A stretch of DNA of 64,000 nt from positions 1-64,000 of the forward strand of contig CASGCS010000008.1 of the NCBI GenBank assembly GCA_949300025.1. The letters are read 5' to 3'. Shown one piece after another: positions 54,858 to 60,448 of the stretch (the first letter of the stretch is position 1; every line of letters begins with the position of its first letter). The notes under the pieces were generated by a model that worked only from the letters and a program-made list of their open reading frames with translations, did not search any database and was not told where the DNA came from. Source of the stretch: an uncultured bacterium (GTDB lineage: Bacteria > Bacteroidota > Bacteroidia > Bacteroidales > UBA932). The position numbers and the translations under genes were made by a program.

Positions 54858-54932
54858 AAAGCGTCGACAAAACGCAAAAATTTATCTTTTTACACTTTTT
54901 TTCCGCAACCTCTGCCCAGATTTGCATAAAAA

Positions 54933-55103
54933 ATGAAAAGGGAGGATAAAAATATCTTGCTCTCTGAAGAGATTGCAAAATGTGTGGAGTGGATTATTGT
55001 AAAAAGAGCTCCCAAATCTGTGAAAGGTTATATAACGCTGCTTGTTGCAGTAGTTCTCGCTCTGCTCCTCTCGATTTATTATTTGGTTAGTTTTAACGGT
55101 TGA
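54933..55103 (+). CDS. small single-span membrane protein upstream of the peptide exporter
   Basis: A 56-residue frame from ATG 54933 to TGA 55101-55103. It has a charged N terminus (MKREDKNILLSEEIAKC), a basic segment (KRAPKSVKG) and one hydrophobic helix (TLLVAVVLALLLSIYYLV) ending in SFNG. Positive residues before the helix predict the N terminus inside. I do not recognise a family. The position between cvpA and the C39 exporter gene, with a terminator-like hairpin after it, fits a small immunity or accessory protein, though it could be unrelated. It has no double-glycine leader. Confidence 0.6.
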   Translation: MKREDKNILLSEEIAKCVEWIIVKRAPKSVKGYITLLVAVVLALLLSIYYLVSFNG

Positions 55104-55108
55104 CACCG

Positions 55109-55181
55109 GTAGGGGCGTTGGCGTGCAGTTGGCTTGAAAGGGGGAAGCAAGCGGTGAAGTTGGCAACGCCTCTACTTTTTT
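55109..55181 (+). terminator. long-stem hairpin with T-tract between the small membrane protein and the exporter
   Basis: GTAGGGGCGTTG (55109-55120) pairs with CAACGCCTCTAC (55164-55175) over 12 bp with one G-U, followed by six T (55176-55181). The 43-base loop is long for a simple terminator. It lies 6 bp before the exporter's start, so it could act as a partial terminator or attenuator. Confidence 0.6.
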
Positions 55182-55187
55182 AAGAAG

Positions 55188-57479
55188 ATGTCCCGCACGG
55201 GAAGAACTGAACAGGATTTGAAGATGGCAAGAGGGGAAGGAAAAGCTGTAAAGGTGCGCCAGTTGCAAAGTTACGACTGCGGAGCCGCATGCCTCGGTTC
55301 TGTGGCCGGATGGTATGGAGTCTACTGGCCGCTTATCAGGATAAGATACCTTTGCGGCTGCACTGAAGAGGGAATTTCCGTAAAGGGAATCATGGACGGG
55401 GCCGTAAAGATGGGATTCTACGCCAAGGCCTACAAGTCTCCGGAGAAAGAGACGGCTGTTTTCCGCGAAGCCAGAATACCCATAATAGTCCATATCAGGA
55501 CAGAACTGAACATGCTCCATTTCGTTACCGTATACGGCCTGAGCGGAGGTAAGGTAAAGATCATGGACCCTGCCTCCGGAGAGTTCCGCAAAGTTCCGGT
55601 GGAGGTATTCAAAGAGCAGTGGACAGGCATTCTCATACTCATAACTCCGGGAAACAATTTCAGGAAAGAGGGCGGCAGGAGAAAGAGCCTTATGGACTTC
55701 TACAAAATTCTGCTTTTCCACAAAAAGGAGATGCTGCTGCTCCTGCTCGGCTCTGTGGCCGTCATGGTATGCGGCATATTCTACTCCATCCTGCTGCAGC
55801 AGATCATAGACAATGTCATATTGGAGGGGAACAAGCCGCTTCTGAGGGCGGTTGCATTTATCATTACAGTGGTGACGCTGCTTATGCTTATGCTGGACTA
55901 CTCCAGAAACATGCTGGCTCTCAGATGCGGAATCAGAATAGACTGCCGCCTTGCCGTTGCATATCTGAGAAAACTCTTTGCCCTTCCGCTGCGATTCTTT
56001 ACCCAGTACCGGGCGGGGGATCTGAATTCCAGGATAGCAGATTCGTTCAAGATAAGGGAGGTGCTGTGCGAAGGCATTGTGTCCGTTGCCGTCAATTCGC
56101 TTGCCGTTCTATGCTGCATTGCGCTCATGTTTGTCTATGACAGAGGCATGGCATTGCTTGTACTTCTCTATATTCCGCTTTATGTGCTCCTTTTCTACAT
56201 ATCCAAACGCATAAACAAGAAATACAACCGGAAACTGGCTGCAAAGGGGGCGGAGTTCGAGTCTGAAATCATAGGAGACATAAATGCTGTCGAAACCATA
56301 AAATATTACAATACGGAGGAACTTGCTCTGGAAAGGATAGAACGCGGCTATGCTGAAATAGCCGAACTTTTCCACAATGGGGGACGGGCCGTGACGGGAT
56401 TCGACGCCGCAGCGCAGACACTCTCGCGCACGCTGCTCTCTTCTATTCTCATCCTTGGAGGTTTTTACTCCATAGAAGGGCATATAACTGCCGGAGAACT
56501 GGTCTCTTTCTATACACTGTGCACCTTTTTCACCTCTCCGCTCAACAGTCTGATAAACCTGAACAACCTTATGGCCGAAGCCGATGTCTCCATTGAAAGG
56601 CTCACCGAAATTCTGGATGCGGAGGATGAAACGCTCCGGGAAACCCCTGAATACGGGATGCTGCCGGAAAAGCCGCTGGATATCAGTTTCAGAAACGTGG
56701 TCTTTTCATATCCCGGCCGGGAAAACATATTCAATGGAATAAACCTCACCTTCAAAAGCGGGGAGATGGTTGTGATAACAGGCAAAAGCGGCTCCGGGAA
56801 AAGCACTCTGCTTTCGCTTGTCATGGGAGAGCATCCGCTCGAAGGAGGAGAGATAACAATAGGACATATTGCTGTAAGAAACCTCAACATAAGAGAGTTG
56901 AGAAGACATATAACTATGGTTCCCCAAAAGTCGCGCCTTATAAACGGCACCTTTCTGGAAAACATCACTTCGCAGCGGGAAGGCTGCCGGATGGAAAGAG
57001 TGCAGCAGATATGCGAAAGGCTCAATCTTGGAGAGTTGATAAACGCAATGCCGTTCGGCCTGCATACTGCCGTAAACGAGACCGAGACAAAGCTCTCGGG
57101 AGGCGAAATCCAAAGAATAGCGATAGCCAGGGCCCTCTACAGAGACTCGGGCATCTACCTTTTCGACGAGCCTGTCACCTCTGTTGACGAAGAGAACAGA
57201 AAATTGATTGTAGACCAGATCAACCTGCTTAAAAAAGAGGGGAAAAGCGTAGTTGTCGTAACTCATGACCTTGAGGCTTTCTACAGATACAATGCTGCGA
57301 TAGACAAAATAATAATGATAGATAAAATGAGTGCGCACTCGAAGGTGGAGGTCTGCACACCGTCTTTGCAGACAAAATTTAAAACAAGTGACTATGGAAA
57401 AGATTTGTCTTTACAGGGTGAGGCTTCAGGAACTCAGCCCGACCGAACTGGAGATGAGAGGAGGAATCTCGTGGGATAG
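55188..57479 (+). CDS. peptidase C39-containing ABC exporter (PCAT)
   Basis: A 763-residue inner-membrane exporter that cleaves double-glycine leaders and exports the peptide. The N-terminal C39 protease has Cys31 (QLQSYDCGAACLGS), His111 (NMLHFVTVYG) and Asp127 (KIMDPASG). A six-helix ABC membrane domain spans about residues 165-450. The ATPase domain has Walker A (ITGKSGSGKSTLLSLV), signature (LSGGEIQRIAIARAL), Walker B (GIYLFDEPV) and the H-loop (VVVTHDLEAF). The tail after residue 715 is atypical, and its coding region overlaps the first peptide gene by 86 bp. ATG 55224 is an alternative start giving Cys at residue 19, closer to the family norm. Two leader peptides follow directly. Confidence 0.93.
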   Translation: MSRTGRTEQDLKMARGEGKAVKVRQLQSYDCGAACLGSVAGWYGVYWPLIRIRYLCGCTEEGISVKGIMDGAVKMGFYAKAYKSPEKETAVFREARIPIIVHIRTELNMLHFVTVYGLSGGKVKIMDPASGEFRKVPVEVFKEQWTGILILITPGNNFRKEGGRRKSLMDFYKILLFHKKEMLLLLLGSVAVMVCGIFYSILLQQIIDNVILEGNKPLLRAVAFIITVVTLLMLMLDYSRNMLALRCGIRIDCRLAVAYLRKLFALPLRFFTQYRAGDLNSRIADSFKIREVLCEGIVSVAVNSLAVLCCIALMFVYDRGMALLVLLYIPLYVLLFYISKRINKKYNRKLAAKGAEFESEIIGDINAVETIKYYNTEELALERIERGYAEIAELFHNGGRAVTGFDAAAQTLSRTLLSSILILGGFYSIEGHITAGELVSFYTLCTFFTSPLNSLINLNNLMAEADVSIERLTEILDAEDETLRETPEYGMLPEKPLDISFRNVVFSYPGRENIFNGINLTFKSGEMVVITGKSGSGKSTLLSLVMGEHPLEGGEITIGHIAVRNLNIRELRRHITMVPQKSRLINGTFLENITSQREGCRMERVQQICERLNLGELINAMPFGLHTAVNETETKLSGGEIQRIAIARALYRDSGIYLFDEPVTSVDEENRKLIVDQINLLKKEGKSVVVVTHDLEAFYRYNAAIDKIIMIDKMSAHSKVEVCTPSLQTKFKTSDYGKDLSLQGEASGTQPDRTGDERRNLVG

Positions 57480-57582
57480 CGTAGTAAAGGTCATCAAGAT
57501 TGTCGCGAAGGTCGTTAATTTCATCCGTGACTACAAGGATGACATGAAAAACGGATTTGAAAAAGGATGGAGGATGTTGTGA
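57394..57582 (+). CDS. double-glycine leader peptide 1 (putative bacteriocin/signal precursor)
   Basis: A 62-residue precursor starting inside the exporter gene. The leader has the class II pattern LQELSPTELEMRGG with conserved hydrophobic spacing and Gly23-Gly24 before the cleavage site. The predicted mature part of 38 residues begins ISWDSVVKVIKIVAKVVNF, a cationic amphipathic helix, and ends FEKGWRML; net charge is about +3 and it has no Cys. The next peptide gene starts in the stop codon (ATGA overlap at 57582). The C39 exporter directly upstream is the expected processing enzyme. Antimicrobial or signalling activity is inferred. Confidence 0.85.
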   Translation: MEKICLYRVRLQELSPTELEMRGGISWDSVVKVIKIVAKVVNFIRDYKDDMKNGFEKGWRML

Positions 57583-57782
57583 TGAAAGGACTGGTTGAAC
57601 TCAGATTAAATGAATGCGCGGCCATATATGGCGGCAAGCGCGATGAAAACGTAGCCAAGATAATAGGATTTGTAGCACAGTGTGTGGGTGCACTCTCCAA
57701 GATGGTCTATCTGGCCATGAAGAGGGGCCACCAGGCCTTCTTGTGGAAGTATGGAGGAAACGGTGTCTACAGCTGGAGATAA
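57582..57782 (+). CDS. double-glycine leader peptide 2 (putative partner peptide)
   Basis: A 66-residue precursor from ATG 57582, overlapping the stop of peptide 1; a longer frame from ATG 57567 is possible. The leader reads LVELRLNECAAIYGG with Gly17-Gly18. The 48-residue mature part is strongly basic (about +6), has one hydrophobic helix (NVAKIIGFVAQCVGALSKMV) with a single Cys and an aromatic C terminus with KYGGNGVYSWR. Translational coupling to peptide 1 suggests equal production, as in two-peptide (class IIb) bacteriocins. The end is followed by a perfect terminator at 57811-57835. Confidence 0.85.
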   Translation: MKGLVELRLNECAAIYGGKRDENVAKIIGFVAQCVGALSKMVYLAMKRGHQAFLWKYGGNGVYSWR

Positions 57783-57810
57783 CCTTCTGAAGCATCTGCT
57801 TGAAAAGACG

Positions 57811-57835
57811 AAAAGAGGGCCCCCTCCCTCTTTTT
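57811..57835 (+). terminator. terminator of the peptide-exporter operon
   Basis: A perfect 9-bp stem AAAAGAGGG (57811-57819) / CCCTCTTTT (57826-57834), loop CCCCCT, running into a T-tract. It lies 28 bp after the second peptide gene and separates it from the TolC gene. Confidence 0.88.
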
Positions 57836-57866: not shown

Positions 57867-57874
57867 TATATTTG
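57867..57874 (+). promoter_or_regulatory. -7 box of the tolC-like/adaptor/tsaB operon
   Basis: TATATTTG at 57867-57874 lies 17 bp before ATG 57892, right after the terminator. There is no TTTG at the -33 position. The TTG at 57883 would leave no leader and is not taken as the start. Confidence 0.5.
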
Positions 57875-57891
57875 CGCCGATATTGGAGATT

Positions 57892-59214
57892 ATGGGAAGG
57901 TTTCTGACACTCTCTGCATTGCTGCTCTCCCTCTTTGCAGCAAATATTGTCTCGGGACAGAATGAATGGTCTTTGGACAGATGCATAAATTACGCACTTG
58001 ACAACAACATCGAGATAAAACAGCAGCAACTTGCCGTAGAACAGGGCAGGAACAACATACTGCAATCAAAACTGAGCCTGCTGCCGAGCGTAAACGGCTC
58101 TTTGAACCACAGCATGAACTGGGGAAAATCTGTCAACGTACAGGATTTGCAGATCATGACAACCCTGGCCCAGAGCACCAGTGCCAGTCTGAGCGCATCC
58201 ATGCCGCTCTTCAGCGGACTTACCAACCTCAGAAGCATTGAAAGCAACAGAATACAGTTGCAAATATCAGAGCAACAGGTAGAAAGTCTTAAGGACAATA
58301 TTACGGTTCAGGTTACGCAAGCCTATCTTGAACTGCTTCTTGCAATTGAAATAGAGAAGGTTGCAAACGAAAGTTTCAAAAGTGTAGAGGCGCAGGCGGA
58401 ACGCACCAAAACCATGGTAAATGCCGGCAATCAGGCATACAGTGCCCTGCTGGATATGGAATCGCAGCTTGCCAACGAAAGGGTGCAGCTGGTTTCTGCG
58501 CAAAACGATGTAAAAAGCAGTTGTATGAACCTCATGCAGTTGCTGAACCTGCCTCACGACACTCCGTTTGAAGTTCCGGAATACAGCATAGACGAGGTTG
58601 CTCTGCCGCTAATCTCTCCATATACCGCAGACGCCGTTTTCGAAGAGGCTCTCGGACTGCCGCAAATCAGGATGGCGGAGTTCGCCCTGGAAAAGAGCAA
58701 GACAGACTACAAGATTCAAAAAGGGGCGGCATATCCATCAATTTCAGTTTCGGCAGGATACGGGACCTATTACAGCGACAGCCGTGAAGGCGCCTTCTTT
58801 TCTCAGTTCGAAGACAACAGGAACCCTTCGCTTGGCTTTGGCATGAGCATTCCCATTTTCAACGGCTGGAGGAGCAACACCTCCATAAGAAATGCCAGGC
58901 TCAATGTAAAGAGTGCGGAACTCGAACTGGAAAAGAGCCGCCAGAATCTTTACAAGGAGATACAGCAGGCATGCAACGATGCCGTAAATGCCTATGCCAA
59001 GCTCGACGCTGCACAGAAGAACGTAGAGATGGCGGAGGAATCCTTCAAGAACACCGAAAGCAAATTCAATCTGCGCATGGTAAACGGCACAGACTACACG
59101 GTTGCCAGAGCGAACCTTTTCAAGGCACAGTCTGAATATTACCAGAATAAATTCCAGTATATCTTCCAACTTAAAATCCTCGATTTTTACAGAGGCATTC
59201 CCATTAAACTGTAG
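57892..59214 (+). CDS. TolC-family outer-membrane channel
   Basis: A 440-residue outer-membrane efflux protein with a signal peptide (LTLSALLLSLFAANIVSGQ). The two TolC repeats are visible: DRCINYALDNNIEIKQQQLA and the matching second-half helix MAEFALEKSKTDYKIQKGA, each with long coiled-coil helices, and strand segments such as SISVSAGYGTYYSD. It has its own -7 box and is followed 4 bp later by an adaptor gene. Placed just downstream of the C39 exporter, it could provide the outer-membrane duct for the peptides. It might instead serve a separate efflux system whose ABC part lies elsewhere. Confidence 0.9.
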   Translation: MGRFLTLSALLLSLFAANIVSGQNEWSLDRCINYALDNNIEIKQQQLAVEQGRNNILQSKLSLLPSVNGSLNHSMNWGKSVNVQDLQIMTTLAQSTSASLSASMPLFSGLTNLRSIESNRIQLQISEQQVESLKDNITVQVTQAYLELLLAIEIEKVANESFKSVEAQAERTKTMVNAGNQAYSALLDMESQLANERVQLVSAQNDVKSSCMNLMQLLNLPHDTPFEVPEYSIDEVALPLISPYTADAVFEEALGLPQIRMAEFALEKSKTDYKIQKGAAYPSISVSAGYGTYYSDSREGAFFSQFEDNRNPSLGFGMSIPIFNGWRSNTSIRNARLNVKSAELELEKSRQNLYKEIQQACNDAVNAYAKLDAAQKNVEMAEESFKNTESKFNLRMVNGTDYTVARANLFKAQSEYYQNKFQYIFQLKILDFYRGIPIKL

Positions 59215-59218
59215 TGGC

Positions 59219-60448
59219 ATGAAAAAGAAAAAAAGCAAGAAGAGTCTGTTCCTTACAATAGCGGGAGGTGTCATCCTGCTTCTTGTCATAATATCCGTAT
59301 TTTCCAAAGGCGATGAAGGTATCGCCGTAACGCTTGCATATCCTCAGGTCTGCCCGATAACGGAAACAGTTCCCGCCAACGGTCGAATCCAGCCTGTCAC
59401 TGAAGTCAAAATCAGCCCTGACGTTTCAGGAGAGATTGTTGAACTGAATTGCGAGGAGGGAGACAGGGTAAATGCCGGAGATCTGCTCATAAAGATAAAA
59501 CAGGACCTGTACATTTCCGCGGTAGAACAGGCGGAAGCCTCCCTGAACTCAGTGAAGGCACAATACCTGCAGCAGAAAGCCCAGTTGATACAGATTGAGG
59601 CGGCCCATAAGAGGAACAAGAGCCTGTTTGAGCAGAAAGCCATTTCACAGCAGGAACTCGAAACATCGACATCTCAGTACCAGGTGGCGGTAGAACAGCT
59701 CAACGCGGCAAAATACAATATCAAAAGTGCAGAAGCAGCATTGAAGGAGGCGCGTGAGAATCTTGTCAAGACAACAATCTATGCTCCCATGAGCGGCATA
59801 ATATCAGACCTTGCCGTAGAAAAGGGCGAAAGGGTTGTCGGCACCAGCCAGATGGCCGGCACCGAAATGCTCAGGATTGCAGATATGGAAAAAATGGAAG
59901 TGCTGGTAGACGTAAATGAAAATGACATAATAAGGCTTTCGCAGTCAGATACGGCCGACATAGAGGTAGACGCCTATCCGAACCGTAAATTCAAAGGAGT
60001 TGTAACACATATAGCCAACTCGGCAAACAGCACTGGAGCAACCGTTTCCGCAGACCAGGTAACCAATTTCGAGGTCAAGGTGAAGATTCTGCCGGAATCG
60101 TATAGAGACCTTCTGGAAAAGAACCCTATTCCGTTCAGGCCCGGCATGTCGGCCTCTGTCTCCATAATCACCGATTACAGGGCAGATGCCATTGTAATTC
60201 CCATACAGGCCATAACCACCCGTACCGAACTGGCAGATTCTTCGGCGACAAACGAGGTGAACGAATTTGTTTTCGTATACGATTCCATTACAGGAAGAGT
60301 GGCCCCTCAGGTGATAACCACCGGAATACAGGATATGATGAACATTGAGGTGCTCAGCGGGCTTACAAGGCAGAGCAGGATTGTAACCGGGCCTTACAGA
60401 GCCATAAACAGAGAGTTGAAAAAAGATTCGGAGGTAACTGTACATTAA
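59219..60448 (+). CDS. HlyD/MacA-type periplasmic adaptor protein
   Basis: A 409-residue membrane-fusion protein anchored by one N-terminal helix (LFLTIAGGVILLLVIISVF). The lipoyl-like halves are ISPDVSGEIVELNCEEGD and IYAPMSGIISDLAVEKGE. Between them lies a coiled-coil hairpin of about 110 residues (EQAEASLNSVKAQYLQQ ... NIKSAEAALKEAREN). The beta-barrel and membrane-proximal domains follow. The layout is MacA-like, so its partner is probably an ABC transporter. The C39 exporter 1.7 kb upstream is the nearest candidate. It lies 4 bp after the TolC gene and one base before tsaB. Confidence 0.9.
   Translation: MKKKKSKKSLFLTIAGGVILLLVIISVFSKGDEGIAVTLAYPQVCPITETVPANGRIQPVTEVKISPDVSGEIVELNCEEGDRVNAGDLLIKIKQDLYISAVEQAEASLNSVKAQYLQQKAQLIQIEAAHKRNKSLFEQKAISQQELETSTSQYQVAVEQLNAAKYNIKSAEAALKEARENLVKTTIYAPMSGIISDLAVEKGERVVGTSQMAGTEMLRIADMEKMEVLVDVNENDIIRLSQSDTADIEVDAYPNRKFKGVVTHIANSANSTGATVSADQVTNFEVKVKILPESYRDLLEKNPIPFRPGMSASVSIITDYRADAIVIPIQAITTRTELADSSATNEVNEFVFVYDSITGRVAPQVITTGIQDMMNIEVLSGLTRQSRIVTGPYRAINRELKKDSEVTVH

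Follow-up and report, generated by a model that had tools for sequence, protein, structure and literature searches.

A two-peptide, bacteriocin-like cassette with its own C39 exporter in a family of Bacteroidales

A cassette consisting of smp, a C39 peptidase-containing ABC exporter (PCAT) gene, pepA and pepB lies at one and the same chromosomal site in roughly half the genomes sampled from a family of gut Bacteroidales. From its sequence and distribution it looks like a standard part of the genome, not an occasional extra, and one that resembles a two-peptide antibacterial system. By analogy with class IIb bacteriocins, smp-C39-pepA-pepB may well make a two-peptide, membrane-active, bacteriocin-like agent with a class IIb-like way of working, a judgement that is evenly balanced. 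Bacteroidales dominate animal guts, yet to our knowledge the order has yielded few small unmodified bacteriocins other than bacteroidetocins. Matched peptides that come with a dedicated exporter in about half of the family's sampled genomes would form a large, apparently undescribed reservoir of natural peptide pairs. No description of the cassette was found in the open-access literature, and none is given in the portions consulted of the RiPP survey of Bacteroidales (PMC10352776) or of the Hungate1000 bacteriocin survey (PMC13289728). The question this would raise is why a bacteriocin-like system became core and stays under purifying selection, and the availability of conserved pairs from many species makes it directly testable.

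Layout of the cassette and its exporter

The window is the whole stretch of DNA analysed, 64,000 nt of contig CASGCS010000008.1 from an uncultured member of the family (GTDB lineage UBA932). An earlier note on this DNA had described a 56-aa membrane protein, a C39 exporter and two coupled genes with double-glycine (GG) leaders. Every part was found at its given position; these parts and the neighbouring elements are as follows.

54933 to 55103, + strand: smp, 56 aa, charged N-terminus and one C-terminal transmembrane (TM) helix; possibly an immunity protein or an accessory to the exporter
55188 to 57479, + strand: C39 peptidase-containing ABC exporter (PCAT), 763 aa; from Pfam domains and the closest solved chains, ComA and PCAT1
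57394 to 57582, + strand: pepA, 62 aa; leader 57394-57465 (24 aa), mature part 57466-57579 (38 aa)
57582 to 57782, + strand: pepB, 66 aa; leader 57582-57635 (18 aa), mature part 57636-57779 (48 aa)
54917 to 54924, + strand: -7-like box CAGATTTG of the putative cassette promoter; its form, CAnnTTTG, is a variant of the Bacteroidales box TAnnTTTG
57810 to 57835, + strand: terminator-like hairpin at the cassette end, from folding; same place in 31/33 genus loci
57867 to 57874, + strand: -7-like box TATATTTG of the separate tolC-macA unit, outside the cassette; TAnnTTTG
57892 to 59214, + strand: TolC-family outer membrane protein (Pfam OEP); neighbour, possible outer-membrane exit
59219 to 60448, + strand: MacA/HlyD-type periplasmic adaptor (Pfam/NCBIfam); neighbour and possible partner, also present without the cassette

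The coupling of the small genes in the window is a TGATG overlap. The pepA leader and cleavage site read MEKICLYRVRLQELSPTELEMRGG|ISWDS..., with GG at residue 24, and those of pepB read MKGLVELRLNECAAIYGG|KRDEN..., with GG at residue 18. The mature parts of 38 and 48 residues were rightly called basic, with computed net charges of +3 and +6.

The exporter is a PCAT, combining a C39 domain that carries Cys-His-Asp with ABC membrane and ATPase domains. The C39, ABC_membrane and ABC_tran models all score over the Pfam cut-off, and the score against TIGR01193 is 393 bits, below its curated cut-off of 524 bits. The catalytic triad is intact as the earlier note had it; Cys31, His111 and Asp127, together with Gln25, Walker A and the H-loop residues, are invariant in the ten genus exporters compared. 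Among solved structures, streptococcal ComA and PCAT1 come closest. Enzymes of this type cleave their substrates after GG and export them across the inner membrane. The true start of the exporter may be the ATG at 55224. Its frame extends 86 nt into pepA, a detail absent from the earlier note; of the species compared, two show it, that of the window and its nearest relative (G002). This tail of about 48 aa (57340-57479 of the window) runs over the pepA leader in a different reading frame and differs little between the two species; as they alone of those compared carry it, the tail was rejected as a functional domain.

The peptide pair

With profiles built from part of the same members on which they were run, pepA followed by pepB was found in 70 of 70 cassette loci of the genus and family. 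The pair occurs in none of the cassette-less loci, one of which (L104) has a weak pepA-like match. The genus loci were gathered by exporter search alone, so the peptides formed no part of the selection, and every genus locus found by its exporter has both. For the family loci a pepB match was the selection criterion, and there only the detection of pepA is independent.

Between the window and G002, the mature part of pepA shows six synonymous and no non-synonymous differences, and that of pepB 15 and none. In other close pairs synonymous change per site is far above non-synonymous change, with the single exception of pepA in G014 against G023 (dS 0.07, dN 0.06). This excess indicates that pepA and pepB are proteins under purifying selection, which is strong in the mature parts. 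The idea that the short frames are open by chance, beside an exporter of another substrate, would fit the lack of a database family match; it is already contradicted by the conservation of the pair and by the substitution counts of both mature parts, and is highly improbable. The earlier note had named a lack of conservation of the small frames as grounds for giving up its module, and the opposite was found.

GG is kept in every aligned pepB and in every pepA except one. In pepA it is followed by a helix, a Tyr that is invariant in the genus set and G54xxxG58 close to the end; in pepB G36 lies mid-helix within an [AG]xxxG motif, which in the window's own pepB is AxxxG at the conserved position. 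A GxxxG-type motif ([GA]xxx[GA]) is present in 44/44 pepA and 53/53 pepB members, and strict GxxxG in 42/44 and 38/53, against shuffled maxima of 18 and 19; as the members are homologous, these counts show conservation and not independent repeats. The median charge of the mature parts is +2 for the 44 pepA and +3 for the 53 pepB members, and their helical moment is about 2 sd above that of shuffles. AlphaFold, run without an alignment, predicts a single long helix for each mature part with modest confidence (mean pLDDT 73 and 67). The two are distant paralogues (hhalign 96%, E 3.5e-9). At least two Cys occur in the core of 0/53 pepB and 2/44 pepA members. With two-Cys cores almost absent and no sign of a modification enzyme in the cassette, the peptides are most simply taken to be linear and unmodified.

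Scans of the single proteins and of all alignment members placed pepA, pepB and smp in no Pfam or NCBIfam family, and no match to a known bacteriocin or immunity family of either database rose above the cut-off. Single members gave sub-threshold matches to lactococcin G-beta, Bacteriocin_IIc, ComC and BlpC, the best class IIb match being lactococcin G-beta (E 0.009). Profile searches of the PDB with pepA and pepB returned chance matches only and no relative.

Neighbourhood, transcription and inheritance

The usual order in the genus is ileS (on the minus strand), cvpA, smp, C39, pepA, pepB, tolC, macA and tsaB, beyond which lie a thioredoxin-like gene, HIT and greA on the opposite strand. The names of neighbours other than the cassette genes, TolC and MacA are putative and come from reading of the sequences. 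The same gene order is found in other genera of the family. In four loci (L035, L065, L067 and L075) the block from C39 to tsaB has the opposite orientation with respect to ileS/cvpA and greA/HIT, and block order is unchanged.

The cassette most likely forms a separate transcription unit, to judge from its upstream box, the hairpin behind it and a separate box before tolC. CAnnTTTG occurs no more than 90 nt upstream of the smp start in 25/26 genus loci, where shuffles lead to an expectation of 0.7. An initial scan upstream of the cassette for TAnnTTTG had been negative and that form was set aside as the cassette's box. TAnnTTTG itself is found between pepB and tolC in 33/33 genus loci. The hairpin has a stem of 10 bp, and the 61-nt fold reaches -15.1 kcal/mol (z -2.4). 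The terminator had earlier been described as strong; the hairpin stands, and its strength was slightly overstated because the T run belongs to the stem.

In one subclade (G015, G009, G030, G012 and others) a conserved promoter block of about GTAAATTTTACCGGATGGTTTGG precedes the cassette, e.g. at G015:C30:12450-12473. It has two to 12 matches per genome in all, and the reversed control has none. Copies also stand before DUF3575, lipoprotein-like, DUF1016, AbiEi, YoeB-type and IS200-like transposase genes, and the block could act as the operator for a regulon not yet described. Further GG peptides were sought behind its other copies and none were found.

The limits of the cassette are set by three genomes that lack it, G038 of the same genus and G044 and G045 of other genera. 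In these, about 75-180 bp separate cvpA from tolC, and smp, exporter and peptides are all missing between them. This adjacency defines the cassette as smp-C39-pepA-pepB and shows tolC-macA to be independent of it. The junctions (L100, L107 and L108 for G038, G045 and G044) can be used as empty sites.

The order of genes also bears on the route of export. tolC directly follows the cassette in 36/37 genus loci and TolC-MacA is present in most family loci, a layout recalling microcin V, which uses a C39 exporter, an adaptor and TolC (as cited in PMC10352776). The peptides would then be dedicated substrates of a type I route, with C39, MacA and TolC as one system. This is unlikely, since tolC-macA stands beside cvpA without the cassette in the three genomes above, and G034 has the cassette with no tolC-macA in the 6 kb downstream. 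The promoter-like box and the hairpin likewise separate the two units, and the distances of TolC correlate more closely with those of MacA (r 0.95) than either set does with C39 (0.64 for TolC, 0.62 for MacA). On these grounds of placement, signals and distances, TolC-MacA was rejected as a dedicated part of the cassette. For a class IIb-like pair, the neighbouring TolC-MacA would be a possible, non-dedicated route across the outer membrane.

The membership of smp in the module is well supported by its placement. Frames of 45-65 aa with one TM helix precede C39 in most genus and family loci, and smp is absent from the junctions that lack the cassette. In the rearranged loci L035 and L085 the smp-like frame keeps to C39 and not to cvpA. 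By the criteria used, smp went undetected in several cassette loci.

The pepA-pepB pair occurs in 37/39 genus genomes, nearly always beside cvpA and tolC. A genus-only pepB profile matched 128/300 family genomes, and a widened profile matched 167/300, in 12/26 genera, including 37/39 in the genus; three of the matches, in genus g23, are marginal (E 0.004-0.009), and some of the family genomes with no match are incomplete. The sample holds one genome per species. Among 295 genomes of the order, nearly all from other families, the scoring sequences were family members and fragments of long frames and nothing else; the fragments, from frames of 260-545 aa, were regarded as chance and discarded. 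The cassette is present in one copy per genome. C39 distances track those of IleS (Mantel r 0.79, 0/500 permutations), an agreement that argues for vertical inheritance, and the cassette evolves faster (mean exporter distance 0.63 vs 0.27 for IleS). The favoured explanation is an early gain in the family, at the cvpA/tolC junction, with vertical inheritance from then on. A scan of genome contigs with patterns from the exporter alignment proved too general, with one useful locus (L110, in a Bacteroidales MAG from roe deer rectum, apparently G013).

Proposed function and likeness to known systems

Class IIb systems such as lactococcin G, plantaricin EF and carnobacteriocin XY share with the cassette the adjacent GG-leader genes in an operon with a C39 exporter, and the helical, mostly cationic cores of 30-50 aa with GxxxG-type motifs in both peptides. 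A small one-TM protein is a further likeness, cf. CbnZ. The differences are the Gram-negative host, the sub-threshold homology and the position of smp first in the operon; the cassette is also near-fixed in the genus and spread through the family, whereas class IIb systems are sporadic. Judged by homology, the cassette is not a class IIb member, and its likeness is one of layout and anatomy.

Under the class IIb-like reading, the precursors would dock by their leaders on the C39 domain, be cut after GG and be exported, as is usual for the exporter family. The mature amphipathic helices are then predicted to pair through their GxxxG-type motifs into one active unit, which by class IIb analogy would permeabilise the membranes of competing, probably related, bacteria. 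AxxxA, GxxxG and SxxxS motifs are characteristic of two-component bacteriocins according to the Hungate1000 survey (PMC13289728), and together with the one-TM smp the motifs strengthen the analogy.

The place, size and topology of smp suggest that it could protect the producing cell at its inner membrane. Among the short immunity proteins known from two-peptide bacteriocins of Gram-positive hosts are CbnZ, with 42 aa, one TM helix and the N-terminus inside, BrcI with 53 aa and AbpIM with 55 aa (PMC6957408). The earlier proposal of smp as a possible immunity factor holds as to its place in the module, and smp matches CbnZ-type proteins in size and topology; it has no family match, and some loci lack a detected smp.

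The same proposal had the module secreting a two-component antimicrobial or signal. Secretion by the C39 exporter and the existence of two partner peptides are well supported by the conserved GG sites and the conserved pairing. Near-fixation and core status are unusual for a bacteriocin, and the points against a weapon are the presence in 37/39 genus genomes, the spread through the family, the IleS-like distances, the single copy and a selection that is purifying, not diversifying. A self-directed role, such as a signal or autolysis, is therefore kept alongside the weapon reading.

Action of the exported pair on its own producing population, as a pheromone or as an autolysis or biofilm factor, would explain why it is core, slowly evolving and vertically inherited, and is a tentative possibility. 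The pair, widespread in one family, would be core machinery directed at self or kin (signal, programmed lysis or kin discrimination) with class IIb anatomy, a view to be held with the same reserve. There are precedents: GG peptides and C39 proteases serve autolysis in Neisseria without killing competitors (PMC11798529), and in Synechococcus (the cyanobacterial EbfG) they act in biofilm formation (PMC4997328). One pepA member matches the pheromone models ComC (E 3e-5) and BlpC (4e-4), where the common part is likely the leader, and the subclade promoter block also precedes DUF3575, lipoprotein-like and toxin-antitoxin genes. Against this, neither the cassette nor its flanks showed a receptor histidine kinase or a regulator, and a GxxxG-type pair with a small one-TM protein suits a pore-forming pair better than a pheromone.

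The Nap autolysis system of Neisseria (PMC11798529) likewise combines a C39 peptidase with several cationic GG peptides, also in a Gram-negative host, but belongs to a horizontally acquired island with an FapF-type outer membrane channel, a regulator and the LagC-like NapI, none of which were found here. Class II microcins such as microcin V share the GG leader, C39 exporter, nearby TolC and adaptor and a Gram-negative host; they differ from the present two peptides, independent TolC-MacA unit and vertically inherited chromosomal locus. Bacteroidetocins are single peptides with at least two cysteines in the mature part and leaders of 15-16 aa; a 5-TM protein is encoded next to them and, in most cases, so is a thiol oxidoreductase (Coyne et al. 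2019, PMC6671954). The cassette shares with them a Bacteroidetes host, GG-leader peptides and a C39-type exporter, but has two peptides, almost no paired cysteines and smp, cvpA, tolC, macA and tsaB as neighbours. As Cys pairs are almost absent and the 5-TM protein and the thiol oxidoreductase are missing, the pair is not a bacteroidetocin.

A second, separate C39 system is present in the window's genome on contig C23 (L099:7954-11848). Its three consecutive genes encode a cysteine-rich GG precursor of 80 aa, a protein of 436 aa for which position alone suggests an adaptor, and a C39 exporter of 727 aa. In G055, from another genus, three differing small frames with GG leaders lie upstream of tolC-macA (L104:37-240, 270-455 and 622-786), and these are possibly divergent versions of pepA and pepB.
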